The notes under the pieces: generated by a model
Database searches by the model: none
The model's input: only the letters and a program-made list of their open reading frames with translations
Told to the model about the DNA's origin: nothing
Shown here: piece by piece, positions 811 through 20,060 of the stretch
How the letters are laid out: the number at the start of each line of letters is the position of its first letter
Numbering within the stretch: position 1 is the stretch's first letter
Translations under genes and position numbers: made by a program
Virus record (IMG/VR): IMGVR_UViG_3300013285_000085
Location: 1-22,463 of that record
Length of the DNA stretch: 22,463 nt
Source of the DNA: a virus
Direction: 5' to 3' (one strand)

Positions 811-3012
811 ATGTCATATACCGTTAAATTTACAGAAACAAACAACTCGGCCAAAGCACCAATTACTGTTGCTGATCAAACAATTAATACACAAACTGAT
901 GTAACTTTCGTAGGCAAGAACTATGCAGGCTACGGTCCGTTAATTGCAGAAAATTTCCTACACTTGTTAGAAAATTATGCCAGCCCAAGTGCCCCGGCTA
1001 CTCCAGTACAAGGTCAATTATGGTTTGACAACACAAGCGGAATTAGTCAGTTAAAAGTTAACATTGATGGTACTGCAAATGGTTGGCAGGCCGCCGGTAA
1101 CGTTCGTAAAGCGGCTGCGGCTCCTGATCTTACCAACAGTATCCAAGGCGATTTGTGGGTTGATACAGTTAATCAACAATTAAATTTATACACAGGTAGT
1201 CAATGGTTGCTTGTAGGTCCAACATATAGTGCCGGAGCACAAACTGGTCCTAAATTAGAAAGTTTTGCAGACGTCAATAATATAACTCACGTGGTACAAA
1301 GTATTTTTGTAAACAATAACCGTGCAATGGTTATTAGCGACAATACATTTATTCCTAAAACAACTATTTTAGGATTTAACGTAATCAATAAAGGTGTAAA
1401 CGTATACACTGACACTAATAATATCAGTAATTCTTATAAGTTTTCTGGTATCATTAGCCAAGCAGATAAATTAACAGATCCTGCCAATGCAGCCGCTCCG
1501 TTAAGCCTAACAAGTTTATTGCGCAGTGATCAACCCAGTACAACAAATTATAGTTTAACTATTAAAAACGCCGGCGGCCTAACACTTGGCAGTGATACTG
1601 GAAGTTTAAGTATTTTTACAGATACAAATAATACTGCGGCATTTTATGCCAAAACAGGCAATAGTATTGAGTTTAGGGTTAATTACAGTAATAGTGGCCC
1701 AGCTACAGTTTTACATATTGACTCTAACAGATTTGTTGGCGTTAATAAATCAAACCCGACACAAAGTCTTGATGTATCGGGTGTTATACAAACTGATAGC
1801 AAAATTAAAATCAACGGAACGGATGATGATAGCCTTGCGACATCAGGCGGATTCCAAGTTGCTGGCCCAGCAACGTTTGCTGGCATAGTAAATTTGTCAG
1901 GCGGCGCTAATTCAAAATTAGTTAATTTAAGTTCAAATATTCAACCCACTGCAAATGAAATATGGAATATTGGCGCCGACCCGGCACTAGGCGGAACAAA
2001 TTATAGATTAAATTCAGTTTATGCCAAGAATTTTTACGGAACATTTAACGGAACATTTGCAAGCGGTGCAACAGCAAGTGTAAGTATTAGTGGATCTGCG
2101 ACCAGACTAGCACAAGCAATCAATTTTGTATTAGCAGGAGATGTTAACAGTAACGTTATTGTTACAGACGGTTCTAATATCAGTTCTTTCCCTACATTAG
2201 GATCTACTGGTAATACTAATTCAACTATTACATTTAACACAGCACTTGCAACAAGTTCATTCACAGATTCTACAAAACCAATTGGCGCTCCACAGTCTAC
2301 CGATATATTTTTGTTTTATCGTCCGGGCAATGCTGGATTAAACACAATTACAAGAAGCAATCTTGTTAGCGGATTACAAGTTCCAATCGGAACAATATTA
2401 CCTTATAGTGGAAAAACTCTTCCAGCTGGTTTTTTATGGTGTGACGGCAGTGAAGTTTCTATTAAAGATTACGGTGCATTAAACAATATTATCGGAGCAC
2501 CTGCAGGATATGTTTATAAACCTGCCGCACAATTAGTTGGATATCCAACTGGTAGTACATTTGCATTACCCGACCTTCGTGGACGTTTCCCGTTAGGCCT
2601 AGATAATATGAATAACGGTTTAAGCGTAGTCATTGATTCCGCTAAAGATACTCAAAGCGCAGGCGGCGGCCCAGCTGGCCGCCTTGGAGGTGCAGTTACA
2701 AGTCAGACAGTAGGCGGCGCATCTGGAACTTTCCAAATTAAATTAGCTAAGGGAAATTTACCGGCCCATACGCACACATTAAAAGGCGCGGCTGGTACTC
2801 AGTATTATGCAATACGACCCATTGCAGGTGCACCGCAAGACGGCGATGCTATTGCAGGACAGGGCCCTGGAACTATTGCCGCTAATCAAGCACAGTATTT
2901 GTCAAACTCTGGAGCTATATCTTTAGATTCAGGCGAAACTATCGGTAACCCAGTGACTATTATGAATCCATATTTGACTATTAACTATATTATCTTTACC
3001 GGAGCCGTTTAA
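811..3012 (+). CDS. Tail fibre / short-fibre-like protein with C-terminal collar domain
   Basis: This 733-aa modular fibre protein opens with the module shared with the genes at 3012 and 4386: MSYT start, VGKNYAGYG near residues 34-42, LLENYA, GQLWFD near 68-73, then a second QGDLWVD...NQQLN repeat. The middle is a Ser/Thr/Asn/Gly-rich beta region with a 'NIG...Y..NSVYAKNFYGT' segment. From about residue 524 to the end it matches the phage tail collar domain: GTILPYSG, GFLWCDG, LPDLRGRFPLG and PAHTHTL. The HTH histidines (653 and 655) correspond to the Zn-binding His-x-His of T4 gp12. Expected role: trimeric receptor-binding fibre on the baseplate. A strong AGGAG (798-802) precedes the ATG. 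The stop overlaps the next ATG (TAATG). Confidence 0.88.
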   Translation: MSYTVKFTETNNSAKAPITVADQTINTQTDVTFVGKNYAGYGPLIAENFLHLLENYASPSAPATPVQGQLWFDNTSGISQLKVNIDGTANGWQAAGNVRKAAAAPDLTNSIQGDLWVDTVNQQLNLYTGSQWLLVGPTYSAGAQTGPKLESFADVNNITHVVQSIFVNNNRAMVISDNTFIPKTTILGFNVINKGVNVYTDTNNISNSYKFSGIISQADKLTDPANAAAPLSLTSLLRSDQPSTTNYSLTIKNAGGLTLGSDTGSLSIFTDTNNTAAFYAKTGNSIEFRVNYSNSGPATVLHIDSNRFVGVNKSNPTQSLDVSGVIQTDSKIKINGTDDDSLATSGGFQVAGPATFAGIVNLSGGANSKLVNLSSNIQPTANEIWNIGADPALGGTNYRLNSVYAKNFYGTFNGTFASGATASVSISGSATRLAQAINFVLAGDVNSNVIVTDGSNISSFPTLGSTGNTNSTITFNTALATSSFTDSTKPIGAPQSTDIFLFYRPGNAGLNTITRSNLVSGLQVPIGTILPYSGKTLPAGFLWCDGSEVSIKDYGALNNIIGAPAGYVYKPAAQLVGYPTGSTFALPDLRGRFPLGLDNMNNGLSVVIDSAKDTQSAGGGPAGRLGGAVTSQTVGGASGTFQIKLAKGNLPAHTHTLKGAAGTQYYAIRPIAGAPQDGDAIAGQGPGTIAANQAQYLSNSGAISLDSGETIGNPVTIMNPYLTINYIIFTGAV

Positions 3013-4349
3013 TGAGTTACACAGTATATACAACCGACGGAACACAACTAACTCAGGTGTTGGACGGCCAGTTTGATCAAATTACTACTAGTTTAACTTT
3101 AGTTGGAAAAAATTCAAGTAGCTATGGTAATTATTTTAATGAGAATTTTGTTTACTTATTAGAAAATTTTGCCGGAACATCTGCACCAACTAAGCCAATT
3201 ACAGGTCAAGTATGGTTTGACAAATCGTCGGGCCGCTTGAAAGTATACGATGGAAACTTATTTAAAGTAACAGGAGGAGCGTTAGTGAGTGCTACTCCTC
3301 CAGCCCAACTTGCCGCTGGTGATATTTGGATAGATAGTACTAATCAACAAATGTATTTTAATGATGGCAATGCAACAGTACTAGCCGCTCCGATATATAC
3401 AAAAAATCAAGGCCAATCGGGATTTAAAACAGTAACAATTTTAGATCAGTACAGCAGTCCGCATACTGTTTTATATTTTTATCTTGCAAATAACCTAGTT
3501 GGAATTTATAGTTTAGATACATTTACACCTTTAACTGCAATTAGTGGTTATACATTTGGTAGCTTTTTAGGATTTCAAACTGGTACTACATTAACTATCA
3601 CTGGAGTAACGACCGGACAAATTAGTGTAGGACAAATTTTATCAGGAACCGGCATTGCATCTAGTACGGTAGTTACTGCTTTTAAAACAGGAACCGGCGG
3701 AGTCGGAACATACAGTGTTAGTACAAGTCAAACAGTTGCTAGTACAACAATAAGTGCTAGTAATAAAGTTATCAAAGCTGGATTTAATATCAGTAGCTAT
3801 CCCGGATTAACTTTTAATGTGCAGGCCAGTACAGCATCGGGCATTATAGACACTGACGGTACTATCAAAGCTGTTTCAAACTTTATGAGTACTGGGGATT
3901 TACAAGCTAACGGTAGTTACGGACAAAGCCTTACATTAAACCAAGTAGTTATTGCAAATGATAATGCATTACAATTAGGTAGTAATCAAAGTGGAAAAAT
4001 TTATTCAGGTACAGATACTTTAAAAGTTGAATCAGTTGTACCGGGCGGAAATTTTCAAGTAAACGTAGTCCCAGTAGGCGGCAGTTCAACCAGTGCTATT
4101 TTTGTAAATTCAAATGTTGGACAGATTGGAGTTTATACTTCTACTCCACAAGCTACAATAGATGTTAACGGAAGTGCAATTATCCGAGGAACGTTAAGTT
4201 TAACAGGATCGAGTCTAACAATAGGGTTAAGTGCTACTAAAACTGGAACTAGTACAGGCACACTGGGACAATTTGCTTGGGATACGAGTTATTTGTACAT
4301 TTGTACAGCCGAAAATACGTGGAAACGTGTGGCCTTGAATAGCTTTTAA
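3012..4349 (+). CDS. Modular tail fibre protein, paralogue 2
   Basis: This 445-aa protein starts on the last base of the previous stop (TAATG), implying translational coupling. The N-terminal module is shared with the flanking fibre genes (VGKNSSSYG 31-39, LLENFA, GQVWFD 65-70, then a GDIWID...NQQMY repeat). Residues about 189-251 are a separate beta-rich module (GTTLTITGV...GQILSGTGIA...GTGGVGTYSVS) of a kind that occurs as mobile units in phage and bacterial surface proteins; it looks inserted relative to the paralogues. The end (about 412-445) has LGQFAWD...YICT..NTWKRVAL, a terminal domain I recall from many phage virion proteins. It has no collar or chaperone domain. Probably a fibre or baseplate-attached adhesin; the ligand is unknown. 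Confidence 0.82.
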   Translation: MSYTVYTTDGTQLTQVLDGQFDQITTSLTLVGKNSSSYGNYFNENFVYLLENFAGTSAPTKPITGQVWFDKSSGRLKVYDGNLFKVTGGALVSATPPAQLAAGDIWIDSTNQQMYFNDGNATVLAAPIYTKNQGQSGFKTVTILDQYSSPHTVLYFYLANNLVGIYSLDTFTPLTAISGYTFGSFLGFQTGTTLTITGVTTGQISVGQILSGTGIASSTVVTAFKTGTGGVGTYSVSTSQTVASTTISASNKVIKAGFNISSYPGLTFNVQASTASGIIDTDGTIKAVSNFMSTGDLQANGSYGQSLTLNQVVIANDNALQLGSNQSGKIYSGTDTLKVESVVPGGNFQVNVVPVGGSSTSAIFVNSNVGQIGVYTSTPQATIDVNGSAIIRGTLSLTGSSLTIGLSATKTGTSTGTLGQFAWDTSYLYICTAENTWKRVALNSF

Positions 4350-4357
4350 TTGGTAGC

Positions 4358-4365
4358 GATAAATA
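4358..4365 (+). promoter_or_regulatory. T4-type late promoter box (GATAAATA)
   Basis: GATAAATA matches TATAAATA at seven of eight positions in the 36-bp gap between two fibre genes. It ends 20 bases before the ATG at 4386 and is followed by an ACGAGGAAT ribosome-binding site. The same octamer occurs in two minus-strand intergenic gaps (20046-20053 and 19209-19216), which suggests it is this phage's usual late box. Confidence 0.5.
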
Positions 4366-4385
4366 TAAAAAACGAGGAATAACTG

Positions 4386-5879
4386 ATGTCATACACGATT
4401 CTTAATTCTAGAGGAACCCAGCTAACAGTAGTAGCGGACGGAACTGTAGATAACACACTACCGATTAAATTAATTGGTAAAAATTATGCTGGATACGGCG
4501 AAATTCAAAGCGAAAACCTGGTGTATATGCTAGAACATTTTGCTAATGCCAATGGTCCAAATAATCCGCTTACTGGACAATTATGGTACGATACAGCTAA
4601 TTCAAAATTACGTTTTTGGGACGGTAGTCGTTATCGTGTAACTAGCGGTTGCGAAGTTACTGTAACAAATTTACAGCCAAGCGGCGCAAAACAAGGCGAA
4701 TTTTGGTTTGATTCTGTTAATCAGCAGGTATACGTTAATAACGGCGCTGGTTATGTTTTAGTTGGGCCGCAAAGTGTTGCAGGCGCTGGAACTACGCAAA
4801 TGCGAAGTGCAAGCGTAACGGATGTCAACGGTGGATCGCACTCGATTATTTTAGCTTACGTTGGTGGTCAGGTAATGTATGTTATTAGTCAACAGGCATT
4901 TACATTAAATCCAAACATTGCAAGCAATCCAACAAATGGTTTTAGTGATATCAGAAAAGGTATTACCTTATCAAGTAGCTCATTAAATGCACAAAGCAAA
5001 TTTACAACATCAGATTCGGCCATGCGCTTTTGGGGAACTGCCAGTGATTCCGATAGTTTAGGTGGATATGCGGCTAGTGACTATCTACGTAGCGGTAATG
5101 CTGGCTTTACTAATCGTGTATCATTTGGAGATGCTGGCTTTTTCTTAGGCGCTAGTAATCCAATTTTGTTTAATATTGCTAGTGGCATACCAACTTTAGC
5201 AAATCAACAGGGAAATACATTAGTATTCCAAGTTACTGTTAACAGTGCTCAAGTAAGTCCGTTAACAATATCTGGCACTGCAATTATCCCTGACATCAAC
5301 ATGGCAAACATTGCTACTATTGGTAGTTCAACACGCCAGTATAATACAATTTATGCTACTAACTTTTCTGGTACCGCTAGTCAGGCCAGCAGTTTATTAG
5401 AAAGTGTTAGTAACGGGTATCGCACAGGTAATACCGGCACTGTTCCAAACACAGTTGCAGTCCGTGATAACAATGCCGATATATTTGCAAACATATTCCA
5501 AGGTATTGCAAGTTCAGCAGACTATGCTGACTTAGCAGAAAAATATCTAGCTGATGCCGAATACGAAGTAGGTACAGTTTTAATGATCGGCGGTGATAAA
5601 GAAGTAACAGCTTGTGAAGTTGGATGTTGTGCAGTTGGGCCAGTGTCTGGAAATCCAGCATACATGATGAACAGTGGTCTTGAAGGCGGCGTTTATGTTG
5701 CACTAAAAGGTCGTGTTCCTGTAAAAGTCACAGGTCAAGTAAAGAAAGGTCAAAAATTAGTTGCCGGCCCTAACGGAACAGCCCAAGCATCTTATGGAAC
5801 TAACAGTGATTATTTTGCCATTGCGTTAGAAACAACTGAAAATGTTGGCGTAGTAGTCATTGAAGCACTGGTCTTATAA
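4386..5879 (+). CDS. Modular tail fibre protein, paralogue 3, with YADLAEKY C-terminal domain
   Basis: This 497-aa protein is the third copy of the MSYT N-terminal module (IGKNYAGYG 30-38, ENLVYMLEHFA, GQLWYD 64-69, then GEFWFD...NQQVYVNNG). The shaft is beta-rich, with LRSGNAGFTNRVSFGDAGF and a 'TIGSSTRQYNTIYATNFSGTA' type repeat, then residues about 378-497 form a separate domain: DYADLAEKYLADAEYEVGTV, then VALKGRVPVKVTGQVKKGQKLV. I recall this C-terminal domain from many aquatic phage fibres, but I do not know a proven function; trimerisation or receptor contact is plausible. The ribosome-binding site is GAGGA at 4374-4378. The stop is separated from the next ATG by nine bases carrying AAGGA. 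Confidence 0.82.
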   Translation: MSYTILNSRGTQLTVVADGTVDNTLPIKLIGKNYAGYGEIQSENLVYMLEHFANANGPNNPLTGQLWYDTANSKLRFWDGSRYRVTSGCEVTVTNLQPSGAKQGEFWFDSVNQQVYVNNGAGYVLVGPQSVAGAGTTQMRSASVTDVNGGSHSIILAYVGGQVMYVISQQAFTLNPNIASNPTNGFSDIRKGITLSSSSLNAQSKFTTSDSAMRFWGTASDSDSLGGYAASDYLRSGNAGFTNRVSFGDAGFFLGASNPILFNIASGIPTLANQQGNTLVFQVTVNSAQVSPLTISGTAIIPDINMANIATIGSSTRQYNTIYATNFSGTASQASSLLESVSNGYRTGNTGTVPNTVAVRDNNADIFANIFQGIASSADYADLAEKYLADAEYEVGTVLMIGGDKEVTACEVGCCAVGPVSGNPAYMMNSGLEGGVYVALKGRVPVKVTGQVKKGQKLVAGPNGTAQASYGTNSDYFAIALETTENVGVVVIEALVL

Positions 5880-13232: not shown

Positions 13233-13942
13233 TGTACGATATAATTTTTATTAGCTATAATGAACCAAATGCAGATGCAAATTTTGCTAGATTACAAGCT
13301 AGATTTAGCAATCCTACATTAAAACGTGTACATGGTATAGATGGTATACATAATGCACATATAGCGGCCGCTAAAAAAGCAATGACTAAAATGTTTTGGG
13401 TAGTAGACGGGGATGCCGAAGTATTAGATTCGTTTGATTTTAGTTATCAAGTTCCTAATAATGAAGTAGATCATGTCCATGTTTGGCGTAGTATTAATCC
13501 TATAAACGATTTAGAATATGGCTACGGCGGAGTTAAACTATTACCAAAAAAATTAACAATGAACATGATGACTGCAAACGTTGATATGACAACCAGCATC
13601 AGTAATTTGTTTAAAGCTATGCCAGAGGTAAGTAATATTACACGGTTTAATACCGATCCATTTACTACTTGGCGTAGTGCTTTTAGAGAGTGTGTTAAAC
13701 TATCTAGTAACGCTATTGATCGTCAGGACGATGTAGAAACTTTACAAAGATTAATTACATGGTGTAGTTCGGGTGACGATAGAGAATACGGTATTTTTGC
13801 CATTGCCGGGGCACTTGCTGGTAAAAGTTACGGGGAAAAAAATGCCTCTAACTTAGAGGCACTTGAGAAAATCAATGATTTTGATTGGTTGTTAAAACAA
13901 TTTACCCTGCAACAAGTTGATCGGCAAGCGGAAAGATCTTAG
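13232..13942 (+). CDS. Glycosyltransferase-like protein, family 2, short copy
   Basis: This 236-aa paralogue of the previous gene is coupled to it by a TAATG overlap. The N-terminus IIFISYNEPNADANF, then KRVHGIDGIHNAHIAAAKKA and FWVVDGDAEV give a D59-G-D61 DxD-type motif; NDLEYGYGGVKL and FTTWRSAFRECVK follow. It lacks the C-terminal extension of the long copy. The 3' end is unusual in two ways: the last 41 bp overlap the 3' end of thyX on the other strand, and bases 13836-13861 within the coding sequence form the intrinsic terminator of the minus-strand operon, so these codons (ASNLEAL) serve two purposes. No plus-strand terminator is visible after the stop. Confidence 0.68.
   Translation: MYDIIFISYNEPNADANFARLQARFSNPTLKRVHGIDGIHNAHIAAAKKAMTKMFWVVDGDAEVLDSFDFSYQVPNNEVDHVHVWRSINPINDLEYGYGGVKLLPKKLTMNMMTANVDMTTSISNLFKAMPEVSNITRFNTDPFTTWRSAFRECVKLSSNAIDRQDDVETLQRLITWCSSGDDREYGIFAIAGALAGKSYGEKNASNLEALEKINDFDWLLKQFTLQQVDRQAERS
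13836..13861 (-). terminator. Intrinsic terminator of the minus-strand operon
   Basis: Read on the minus strand, TGCCTCTAAGTTAGAGGCA (13861-13843) folds into an 8-bp perfect stem with a 3-nt loop (7 bp plus a 5-nt loop is the likelier form) and is followed directly by seven T residues (13842-13836). It begins about 40 bases after the thyX stop codon, a textbook Rho-independent terminator. It lies wholly inside the coding sequence of the convergent glycosyltransferase gene. On the plus strand the hairpin has no downstream T tract, so it is one-directional. Confidence 0.85.
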
Positions 13943-15781: not shown

Positions 15782-16060
15782 TTATTTTTGTGGATAGGCA
15801 ATCTTGAAGAAACTGAGTTCTTTTTCTTGCTCGAATCCTATGCGTGTTATGTATATAATGCTATTGTTATGATCTAGTGTTAGATCCTGGCCAATGTAGT
15901 AACGGCCGTTTAGATTGTCTCTGATCCAGAGATCTAAATTACGTGCTATATTTGGTTTAAAATCATTGATGCTATCATACTTAAAATGCGGCGCGGCAAA
16001 CTCAACCCTCCGTAAGTTGAAATAATTTAAAGGATTGGGCTTGCCGTTTTTAATCGCCAT
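15782..16060 (-). CDS. Hypothetical protein coupled to the VWA gene (92 aa)
   Basis: The start codon shares one base with the stop of the VWA/metallopeptidase gene (TAATG), so its translation is likely tied to that gene. The sequence (MAIKNGKPNPLNYFNLRRVEF...LDLWIRDNLNGRYYIGQDLTLD...ITRIGFEQEKELSFFKIA) looks like a small alpha/beta domain with no catalytic motif, signal peptide or membrane segment. Coupling suggests, but does not prove, that it works with the MoxR/VWA pair, for instance as an adaptor. The family is not recognised beyond a vague memory of similar unknowns in T4-like phages. Confidence 0.7.
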   Translation of the reverse strand: MAIKNGKPNPLNYFNLRRVEFAAPHFKYDSINDFKPNIARNLDLWIRDNLNGRYYIGQDLTLDHNNSIIYITRIGFEQEKELSFFKIAYPQK

Positions 16061-17244
16061 TATGCAGTTTCTTTCAATGCTTCGTAGTAAGCTACCTCAC
16101 CAAAAGGTGGAACAATTTTATCATTGCCGTGGATTACGAATACTGTATCGCAGTAGTCTGGATCCCCCCAGCTATCCCAAGGATAACCGTCTGTAAACAT
16201 AATAAACTTTTTAGGAACAATATCATGTTCTTTCATGTAGTTCCAATTGGCATCGAAGTCAGTACCGCCACCGCCCATCGGTTCATATTCATCAAATTCT
16301 TCAATATTATAACCATCAAACGATTGTTCATTGTATACCTTAGTATCAAAACACCAAATTTTAATATTGAATTCTCGGTATTCTTCCATAATGCCTTTGA
16401 TTTCACTTAGGAAGTCTTTTGCTTGTGCATCGCTAATACTACCAGACATGTCAATACTAACACATATATCAATTGTTTCCTCGACATTAGTACCTGGCAA
16501 GATAGCACTCATGTGCCAGCCTTTACGATTAGGACGCATAAATGTAAAATCGCTACGGATCACACTTTGAATTTGTTGACGCAAAATTTCACGCCAATTC
16601 ATTTTAGGTTCTGTAAATTCTTTAATCATCCGTTGTACACTTGCAGGGGTATTACCTGTACCTGCGGCATTAGCGGCTTGAATAGTTGCTTCACGGATTT
16701 CATCTCGAATCTTTTTCAATTCGTCTTTGCTGTACTGTGGACGACCATCTTTACCTTCTTTACCCCAATCGATGTGATCATCCAATAACTGCCCCAACTG
16801 ATTAAGTTGTTGCTCATCCATTTCGTCAAAGATTTTATCGTAAATTTCTTCTGCACCCATGCCGTAGTATTTGGCATCATGGAAAATCTTAATACCGTTA
16901 ATATTGTGATCACCGATACCATCACGTACAATTTGTCCGTTTACTGTATAATCACATGCAATATTAAAAATTGCAGGGTCACGACCTTCTCGACGTGTCA
17001 TGTGATCAAACACATTGTGCAGGATTTCGTGTGCAATAACAAATTCAATTTGTTTAGTGCTAAGTGGTTCAAAAAATTTGCGGTTAAAATAGATTGAACG
17101 GCCGTCGGTAGCCGCAGTATTACACCATTCTTCTGCTTCTTGAATTTTTAAACGTGTTGCCATGTTGCCAAAAAACGGATGGCGCAACAATAGTCCTACA
17201 CGGGCTACAATAATTTTATCGATAATCGGATCTACTTGTGACAT
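16060..17244 (-). CDS. Metallopeptidase-like/VWA protein (DUF2201 type), MoxR partner
   Basis: This is a 394-aa protein. The start at 17244 (MSQVDP) has AGGAG at 17251-17255 and is preferred over an upstream in-frame start that would extend into the promoter. The N-terminal half has a zinc-metallopeptidase motif HEILH (72-76, HExxH) followed by ACDYTVN (97-102), the pattern of the DUF2201 N-terminal domain. The C-terminal half is a VWA fold with the MIDAS residues D265-x-S267-x-S269, GGGTDFD (325-331) and FTDG (350-353). Proteins of this type pair with MoxR AAA+ ATPases, here the next gene upstream. The known theme is ATP-driven remodelling or metal insertion; the phage target is unknown. It has its own sigma-70-type promoter. 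Confidence 0.85.
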   Translation of the reverse strand: MSQVDPIIDKIIVARVGLLLRHPFFGNMATRLKIQEAEEWCNTAATDGRSIYFNRKFFEPLSTKQIEFVIAHEILHNVFDHMTRREGRDPAIFNIACDYTVNGQIVRDGIGDHNINGIKIFHDAKYYGMGAEEIYDKIFDEMDEQQLNQLGQLLDDHIDWGKEGKDGRPQYSKDELKKIRDEIREATIQAANAAGTGNTPASVQRMIKEFTEPKMNWREILRQQIQSVIRSDFTFMRPNRKGWHMSAILPGTNVEETIDICVSIDMSGSISDAQAKDFLSEIKGIMEEYREFNIKIWCFDTKVYNEQSFDGYNIEEFDEYEPMGGGGTDFDANWNYMKEHDIVPKKFIMFTDGYPWDSWGDPDYCDTVFVIHGNDKIVPPFGEVAYYEALKETA

Positions 17245-17273
17245 TCTTGCTCCTGAATTGTTACTATGTATAT

Positions 17274-17302
17274 AGTATAACACCTCCCGAAGGAGGTGTC
17301 AA
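17274..17302 (-). promoter_or_regulatory. Sigma-70-type promoter of the VWA gene
   Basis: On the minus strand, TTGACA (17302-17297), a 17-bp spacer and TATACT (17279-17274) form a near-perfect promoter, giving a start about 22 bases before the ATG. Blocks TTGACAC, GGTGTTATACTAT and AGTAACA are shared, at identical spacing (11 and 6 bases between them), with the promoter of moxR at 18477-18505. The spacer contains a perfect inverted repeat. Confidence 0.75.
17280..17299 (-). repeat. Inverted repeat with TTCG loop inside the VWA promoter spacer
   Basis: Minus-strand ACACCTCC-TTCG-GGAGGTGT is an 8-bp perfect dyad with a C(UUCG)G tetraloop. It is located between -35 and -10 and overlaps the last bases of the -35 hexamer. 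It can act as DNA dyad (operator) or, on a transcript reading through from moxR, as a very stable RNA hairpin. There is no T tract after it, so it is not a typical terminator. Confidence 0.8.
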
Positions 17303-17318
17303 ATGGTGCTAAACCGAA

Positions 17319-18422
17319 TTATTTACGACGATCGTCTTTTTCGGTAGCGGCGCTAATGTACTTGCCAAATTTAGCGTGGAACGCATCAAAACATTTGATT
17401 TCGTCCGGATCCAACGGCAATTTGTAACTAGACAATGCCAATTTAGTACCCATAATAACCAATTCTGTTTCGAAGTTATTCATCATAAATTCGAAAAAGT
17501 TGTTTACTTGATCATTCCAATTTTTAGCATTCTTTTCGCTTGCATCTTTCAATTCATAGCACAAAGAGATAGTCAAAGAATACATTGCTGAAATTTCTTT
17601 GGAATCCATCTTTTTAACTTTGCCGCTCAAAATGTCTGTAGGATTAGGCATCTTGCTGGCAATTTTACGGTGAGCCATAAACTTAATAGCAAGACCTTCA
17701 CCAATCGAACCACAAGTCAAATCAGTCAGGGTATTTTCGTCTGTGTCGTCGTCTGTAAGCAATTCGCTAACAAAAGACCAGCTACGTGGAGTAGCAAACG
17801 CACGTGAACTAGACTTTGGATCAAAATCGTAAAGTTCTTTCTTGGCAAAAGTAAGGAAACCAACAACATCCTTATGGATCTTGTTTTCAGTAGCCCAGTC
17901 AAACCAGTCTTCCCAATCAACTTTCATTTCCAAGTGAACGAAACGATTTGCCAGCGGACTAGGCATACGGAATGTAACACCCTTGTCTGTTTCACGATTA
18001 CCAGCGGCAACCATTACTACGTTATCTGGAAGTTGGTAAGTACCAACCTTACGATTCAAAATCAACTGATAAGCCGCGGCTTGTACGCTAGGTGCGGCAC
18101 TGTTCAATTCATCCATAAACAGGATAATAGTCTTATGCTGTTTTGCCAATTCGGCATCTGGCAATTCGCTTGGAGGAGCCCAAACCATTTTACCAGTGTT
18201 ACTGTCAAAATATGGAATACCTTTAATGTCGGTAGGTTCCCACAAACTCAAACGGACGTCAATGACATGGGCATCAAGCTCAGTGCCCAGTTGTTTGATA
18301 ATGTCTGATTTACCAATACCTGGGGGACCCCAGATAAAGATTGGGCGTTTGCTGTTAAATGCTTTGCGCAAAGATTTTTTAGCACCTTTAGGGCCAACTG
18401 TGCGACTATTAATTTCTGCCAT
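17319..18422 (-). CDS. MoxR-type AAA+ ATPase
   Basis: This 367-aa ATPase has a complete core: Walker A GPPGIGKS (32-39), Walker B IILFMDE (99-105), sensor 1 AAGN (139-142), and the arginine finger in PSPLANRF (R160). LSLWEPTDIKGIP (59-70) is a MoxR-type insert after beta 2. The C-terminal part (about 190-367) is helical and probably holds the lid and partner contacts. MoxR ATPases form hexamers that remodel targets presented by a VWA-domain partner, encoded directly downstream. The start at 18422 has AAGGA upstream; the gene follows a strong promoter (18477-18505) with a leader of about 48 bases. It is separated from the VWA gene by 74 bp containing a second promoter. Confidence 0.9.
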   Translation of the reverse strand: MAEINSRTVGPKGAKKSLRKAFNSKRPIFIWGPPGIGKSDIIKQLGTELDAHVIDVRLSLWEPTDIKGIPYFDSNTGKMVWAPPSELPDAELAKQHKTIILFMDELNSAAPSVQAAAYQLILNRKVGTYQLPDNVVMVAAGNRETDKGVTFRMPSPLANRFVHLEMKVDWEDWFDWATENKIHKDVVGFLTFAKKELYDFDPKSSSRAFATPRSWSFVSELLTDDDTDENTLTDLTCGSIGEGLAIKFMAHRKIASKMPNPTDILSGKVKKMDSKEISAMYSLTISLCYELKDASEKNAKNWNDQVNNFFEFMMNNFETELVIMGTKLALSSYKLPLDPDEIKCFDAFHAKFGKYISAATEKDDRRK

Positions 18423-18476
18423 TTCCGTTCCTTACTGTTAAAAAATTAAGTGGTTCAGTGCTGTTACTGTTTTAAT

Positions 18477-18505
18477 AGTATAACACCAAGTCGCAGTAGT
18501 GTCAA
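18477..18505 (-). promoter_or_regulatory. Sigma-70-type promoter of moxR
   Basis: Minus-strand TTGACA (18505-18500), 17-bp spacer, TATACT (18482-18477): consensus -35 and a one-mismatch -10. It begins five bases after the stop of the upstream 129-aa gene, so it re-initiates transcription inside the gene cluster. It is closely similar in sequence and spacing to the VWA promoter at 17274-17302, including flanking blocks. The dyad TGACAC...GTGTTA straddling the spacer is kept, but the inner hairpin is not. Confidence 0.75.
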
Positions 18506-19996: not shown

Positions 19997-20010
19997 ATAT
20001 TTCTCCTAGT

Positions 20011-20040
20011 ATTACTCTTCCCCGAAGGCGTTGGAGTAAT
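20011..20040 (-). other. mRNA leader hairpin with UUCG loop
   Basis: Minus-strand sequence from ATTACTC (20040-20034) to GAGTAAT (20017-20011) is a 7-bp stem enclosing a CC-TTCG-GG inner hairpin with internal mismatches. If the GATAAATA box at 20053-20046 is a late promoter, transcription would start near 20040, making this the 5'-terminal hairpin of the mRNA, directly before the AGGAG of the 182-aa gene. C(UUCG)G hairpins are known as stable elements in T4 mRNAs. Confidence 0.55.
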
Positions 20041-20045
20041 ATACG

Positions 20046-20053
20046 TATTTATC
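20046..20053 (-). promoter_or_regulatory. T4-type late promoter box (GATAAATA)
   Basis: Minus-strand GATAAATA (20053-20046) matches TATAAATA at seven of eight positions in the 64-bp gap after the 172-aa gene. It would drive the 182-aa and 81-aa genes. The predicted start, six to seven bases downstream, coincides with the first base of the leader hairpin. Confidence 0.55.
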
Positions 20054-20060
20054 TCTTGTA

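Follow-up and report, generated by a model that had tools for sequence, protein, structure and literature searches.

The moxR/VWA locus and its two promoters

The window, by which we mean the whole stretch of DNA analyzed (22,463 nucleotides, IMG/VR virus record IMGVR_UViG_3300013285_000085), carries on its minus strand a MoxR-type ATPase gene and a VWA partner gene, with a Thy1-type thymidylate synthase downstream of the latter. The gaps in front of the two genes, 88 bp ahead of moxR and 71 bp between moxR and VWA, hold the two promoter blocks considered here. The main features, all on the minus strand, are as follows.

18500 to 18505, minus strand: -35 hexamer TTGACA of the moxR promoter
18477 to 18482, minus strand: -10 hexamer TATACT of the moxR promoter (spacer 18483-18499 unconserved, relatives without a hairpin)
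17319 to 18422, minus strand: MoxR-type AAA ATPase gene (Pfam AAA and AAA_3; phrog_1297 ATPase), upstream of the putative composite element
17297 to 17302, minus strand: -35 hexamer TTGACA of the VWA promoter, its ACA forming the base of the hairpin
17280 to 17299, minus strand: hairpin ACACCTCC-TTCG-GGAGGTGT (arms 17292-17299 and 17280-17287, loop 17288-17291), supported by folding and compensatory changes
17274 to 17279, minus strand: -10 hexamer TATACT of the VWA promoter, also serving the hairpin as an imperfect, T-rich tail
17265 to 17279, minus strand: shared -10-to-start box TATACTATATACATA, present in exact form in relatives at the promoters of moxR and VWA alone
16060 to 17247, minus strand: VWA partner gene, with a DUF2201_N putative metallopeptidase and a DUF2201 VWA-like domain (Pfam E = 7.3e-39 and 3.6e-16)
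13836 to 13864, minus strand: ordinary intrinsic terminator (hairpin and T-run) after thy1, the likely end of the minus-strand unit

For the VWA gene, the ATG at 17247 is a better start than the mechanically listed GTG at 17283; most relatives keep an MSH.. start preceded by an AGGAGC-like site. The VWA/DUF2201 family carries the name “HNH endonuclease” in many phage records as well as in PHROGs (phrog_1314), probably a propagated misannotation, as a Pfam search of the VWA protein found no HNH domain and instead returned the metallopeptidase and the VWA-like domain. Relatives with ca. 86% identical MoxR come from records of up to 356 kb, and the phage group carrying the VWA hairpin promoter consists of large freshwater phages. 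Farther removed are jumbo phages, among them PA5oct, 121Q, and GAP32; in the last two, the ATPase and VWA genes are adjacent, with thymidylate synthase downstream, comparable to the window. Elsewhere in the window, three successive genes at 811-5879 (plus strand) have N-terminal matches to structural or tail-fiber families (phrog_15511 and phrog_14394), suggesting related tail-fiber genes, and an intergenic hairpin at 19997-20060 (minus strand; TATTACTC...GCCTTCGGG...GAGTAATACTAGGAG) ends near a ribosome-binding site and has no consensus promoter.

A sequence-only reading had described the two promoters as a duplicated, regulated block, TTGACAC-N11-GGTGTTATACTAT-N6-AGTAACA. Both copies are present with no mismatches, at 17259-17302 and 18462-18505 (both minus strand); the range first given for the pair, 17274-18505, leaves out the downstream AGTAACA, which extends to 17259. 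Allowing up to three mismatches gave no further match within the window, and none is expected in shuffles. The two blocks are the best sigma-70 promoters of the minus-strand operon and, as had been claimed, nearly ideal ones (TTGACA-N17-TATACT, 11/12 consensus positions, and TG ahead of the -10); both are conserved in relatives, giving each gene its own strong sigma-70-type promoter.

Conservation past the -10 was also borne out. The box TATAMTAYATACATA is exact at both promoters in 6 of 11 records and at one of the two in most others, with no exact copy elsewhere in the 11 records searched; sites with one mismatch are few, and several of them are other strong promoters. In a 356-kb relative (G002), 39 strong promoters have C, A, and T at 69 to 76% around the start, a pattern that is weak in another large relative (G004). 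The box is an elaboration of the looser start-region consensus of the strong promoters of G002, which would be compatible with an early-promoter class. Taken together, the shared box and this looser consensus point to the moxR and VWA promoters as members of one phage promoter class, of which they would be the closest pair.

The start region of these other strong promoters in one relative would fit the proposed promoter class, but the shared operator of that proposal, a dyad TGACAC...GTGTTA, was not supported. Its letters are present in both blocks, yet only at 17302 do they belong to a perfect hairpin, of which they make up the outer portion. The region at 18505 folds no better than shuffles (z = -0.83, 41/200 as good). 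All that relatives conserve of the moxR promoter is TTGAC-N18-TATAAT; its GGTGTTATACTAT variant is limited to the nearest relatives of the window, and dyad pairing (39.6%) is at shuffle level; in L123-L125, with 93% MoxR identity, the left arm TGACAC already reads TGACTA. The window's dyad at moxR is thus incidental, its pairing in relatives equaling that of shuffles and being lost even at 93% identity; it is favored by the ACA of the -35, which complements the TGT adjoining the -10 in any such extended consensus promoter. A recent duplication of one promoter block was ruled out, the spacers being unrelated across the clade. The two promoters are not copies of one regulated switch, since the start signal of moxR, though similar, lacks the hairpin. 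In the moxR leader (18425-18470, minus strand), a T run, TTAATTTTTTAA, lies 20 to 30 nt upstream of the start codon, and relatives have similar T-rich tracts.

A hairpin in the spacer of the VWA promoter

A perfect tetraloop hairpin exactly fills the 17 bp between the VWA -35 and -10: 5 bp, the tetraloop, 5 bp, and TGT add up to the optimal spacer length, and this TGT, adjoining the -10, is base-paired to the ACA of the -35. The region at 17302 has a minimum free energy of -20.9 kcal/mol (z = -4.55; 0/200 shuffles equal). The hairpin sits 3' of the moxR stop codon, in the moxR/VWA gap, and its tail has 4 T in 8 without a true U-run. It was absent from the list given by a simple terminator scan of the window, and an Rfam search of the window matched no known RNA family.

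We compared relatives collected by MoxR protein similarity rather than by motif, so that the set was not selected for the promoter. All 78 relatives whose sequence spans the gap keep the -35, the 17-nt hairpin spacer, and the -10 between moxR and VWA (the promoter locator misplaced the element in L153 and L154, but the raw sequence of both carries it). The gene order moxR, hairpin promoter, VWA is conserved among them with no sign of shuffling. Stems vary among CCTCC/GGAGG, CCACC/GGTGG, CCGCC/GGCGG, and GGACC/GGTCC, and in one relative the exchange reaches into the -35 (TTGACG...CGTTATACT). Across 23 representative distinct sequences, compared with 500 shuffles, the stem was paired in 99.5% of cells versus 83.8% in shuffles, double-sided changes numbered 25 versus 5.8 and involved four stem pairs, and the covariation score was 0.382 versus 0.087, a value that none of the shuffles reached; sliding the stem partner abolished the signal. 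These compensatory changes coexist with consensus -35 and -10 hexamers. Anatomy, conservation, covariation, and placement after the stop codon are direct observations for this element. It would be a compact example, backed by covariation, of a single sequence that evolves under two codes simultaneously, as promoter in DNA and as putative terminator in RNA.

The free change of stem sequence with pairing kept points to a hairpin formed in RNA and not to a binding site for a protein. We therefore consider very unlikely a dedicated operator through which a single regulator, from phage or host, would put both promoters under one signal, even if the restriction of the exact box to these two promoters in the 11 relatives would fit such an arrangement: the dyad is missing at moxR in relatives, the VWA stem drifts in a way an operator would not, and the box itself elaborates a looser start consensus found at other strong G002 promoters. 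The dyad as a shared operator was rejected on the first two of these grounds. The loops on the sense strand are mostly UNCG (12 of 21, counting the distinct promoters of the MoxR-found set that were placed correctly), a class of stable RNA tetraloops.

Hairpin promoters in other phages and related elements

When 12 relatives were searched for perfect TTGACA-N17-TATAMT sites, each record had a single hairpin form, always at the moxR/VWA boundary, and consensus promoters without a spacer hairpin were common in the same records. The two large relatives (G002 and G004) have a few weaker or otherwise placed promoter hairpins, for example at G002:3980 and within a dense promoter array at G004 1750-2844. 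The 356-kb relative has long promoter hairpins at L440:15291 and 15607 whose loop contains the -10 (GTTCATGTGCT-ataata-AGCACATGAAC), a register that matches several promoters of phage RB49.

A scan for promoters with a TNCG-centered spacer recovered a complete 5-bp inner stem in 71 of 100 viral matches, a figure inflated by the many matches that are relatives of the same moxR/VWA locus, versus 1 of 116 bacterial matches. With a single bacterial promoter pairing at all five inner positions, there is no sign of a bacterial class, and a general bacterial architecture was rejected. Twenty-six distinct viral hairpin promoters precede other genes, clamp-loader-like, MoxR, and lipoprotein genes among them, and a few of these are probably due to chance. 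At L221:3747, the MoxR gene of a more distant phage lies directly behind a hairpin-spacer promoter (GTAAA-TACG-TTTAC), so the form is not restricted to VWA genes. Most of the hairpin promoters of other genes start within ca. 25 nt of a same-strand stop codon; apparent exceptions at divergent promoters (L112, L217, L220, and L288) proved to be an antisense-ORF artifact, with a same-strand gene ending 8 to 20 nt upstream.

This placement just 3' of same-strand stop codons also bears on whether the dyad acts as DNA, for instance as a supercoiling-sensing cruciform. The palindrome does lie between the -35 and the -10, and compensatory changes preserve a DNA palindrome as well as an RNA stem. However, UNCG loops are favored on the transcribed-sense strand only, a preference that speaks of RNA stability, and arms of 8 to 10 bp are short for cruciforms; with the position after stop codons, this makes a DNA role scarcely credible.

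The closest known counterparts are the promoter early stem-loops (PeSLs) of T4-like phages, reportedly treated by Arbiol et al. in 2010 and Comeau et al. in 2014. PeSLs, which are cited in PMC4503421 and PMC3950731, are described as strong sigma-70-like promoters fused to stem-loop terminators between phage genes, scattered in numerous copies through hyperplastic regions, where they drive the shuffling of genes. Like a PeSL, the VWA element has a strong sigma-70-like promoter whose consensus is kept in relatives and joins it to a stem-loop, here in the spacer and with covariation, and by analogy its architecture would work like the PeSL cassettes. Unlike PeSLs, it is single copy, orthologous, and fixed at the moxR/VWA boundary, with the hairpin always in the spacer register and the tetraloop mostly UNCG. 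We do not class it as a PeSL because dispersed copies, when looked for in the 12 records, were not found, each relative having one hairpin-spacer consensus promoter. In RB49 (bases 1-90,000), among 21 strong promoter matches, some had stem-loops, located upstream of the -35 (5), in the spacer (1: TTGACAGGGGATCGGTGATCCCCTATACT), or across the -10 (6). The haloarchaeal virus HGTV-1 has a promoter motif with an inverted repeat before many genes, which its authors liken to PeSLs (PMC3950731); the VWA element likewise combines a promoter with an inverted repeat, but that of HGTV-1 is of the archaeal TATA type, multicopy, and from an unrelated virus.

A candidate promoter-terminator between moxR and VWA

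We consider it likely, from anatomy and comparative data, that the VWA element is a composite promoter-terminator in which the 3' hairpin of the moxR transcript is built into the VWA promoter spacer. Polymerase arriving from moxR would transcribe this spacer, whose RNA would fold into an 8- to 10-bp hairpin of the UNCG type, with the U/A-rich -10 region (in the window, UUAUACUAUA) directly behind it; as RNA, the hairpin probably ends the moxR message. Termination would be at least partial, and fresh polymerases would initiate VWA transcription from the same DNA, likely making VWA independent of moxR in level or timing within the 71-bp gap. We infer termination, initiation, and physiological purpose alike from the features of the element.

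Like ordinary intrinsic terminators, the element is a GC-rich hairpin just past a stop codon with a core common to these genomes; in contrast to them, -35 and -10 hexamers replace the A-tract and the U-tract. The ordinary terminators of relatives show identical cores (AAAAAAGGACC-TTCG-GGTCCTTTTTT versus TTGACAGGACC-TTCG-GGTCCTGTTATAAT), and a hairpin terminator directly follows the same ATPase gene in the distant jumbo phages PA5oct, 121Q, GAP32, Vibrio 2.275, and Phosso. The same orientation of the two genes is weak evidence by itself, because tandem gene order is common in phages. The main weakness of the terminator reading is the only partly U-rich tail; with 4 T in 8, intrinsic termination could be weak.

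A stable UNCG hairpin with a poor U-tract and an AU-rich tail could instead be an mRNA 3'-end protector or processing site, the moxR-VWA transcript being cut in that tail, the hairpin shielding the moxR mRNA from 3' exonucleases, and VWA being expressed mostly from its own promoter. The positional evidence for this is identical to that for a terminator. We nevertheless regard it as unlikely, given the ordinary T-run terminators at the same boundary in distant jumbo phages and a stem core equal to that of terminators in the same genomes.

As a composite promoter-terminator, the VWA element would mark the transcription-unit borders of the poorly studied phage MoxR-VWA pair, and the motif TTGACA-N5-TNCG-N5-TGTTATAMT with a paired stem is a finder for composite boundaries in uncultured phages. 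We tentatively propose, at somewhat less than even confidence, a phage-specific architecture in which a terminator hairpin, usually UNCG, is fitted into a 17-bp spacer, so that one 29-bp sequence would both end and start transcripts in diverse phages and at various boundaries (clamp loader, MoxR, lipoprotein, and others). Promoter occupancy may then modulate termination, because an initiating polymerase sits on the terminator; if termination is true, the question is whether the upstream gene has its termination tuned by polymerases that initiate there.
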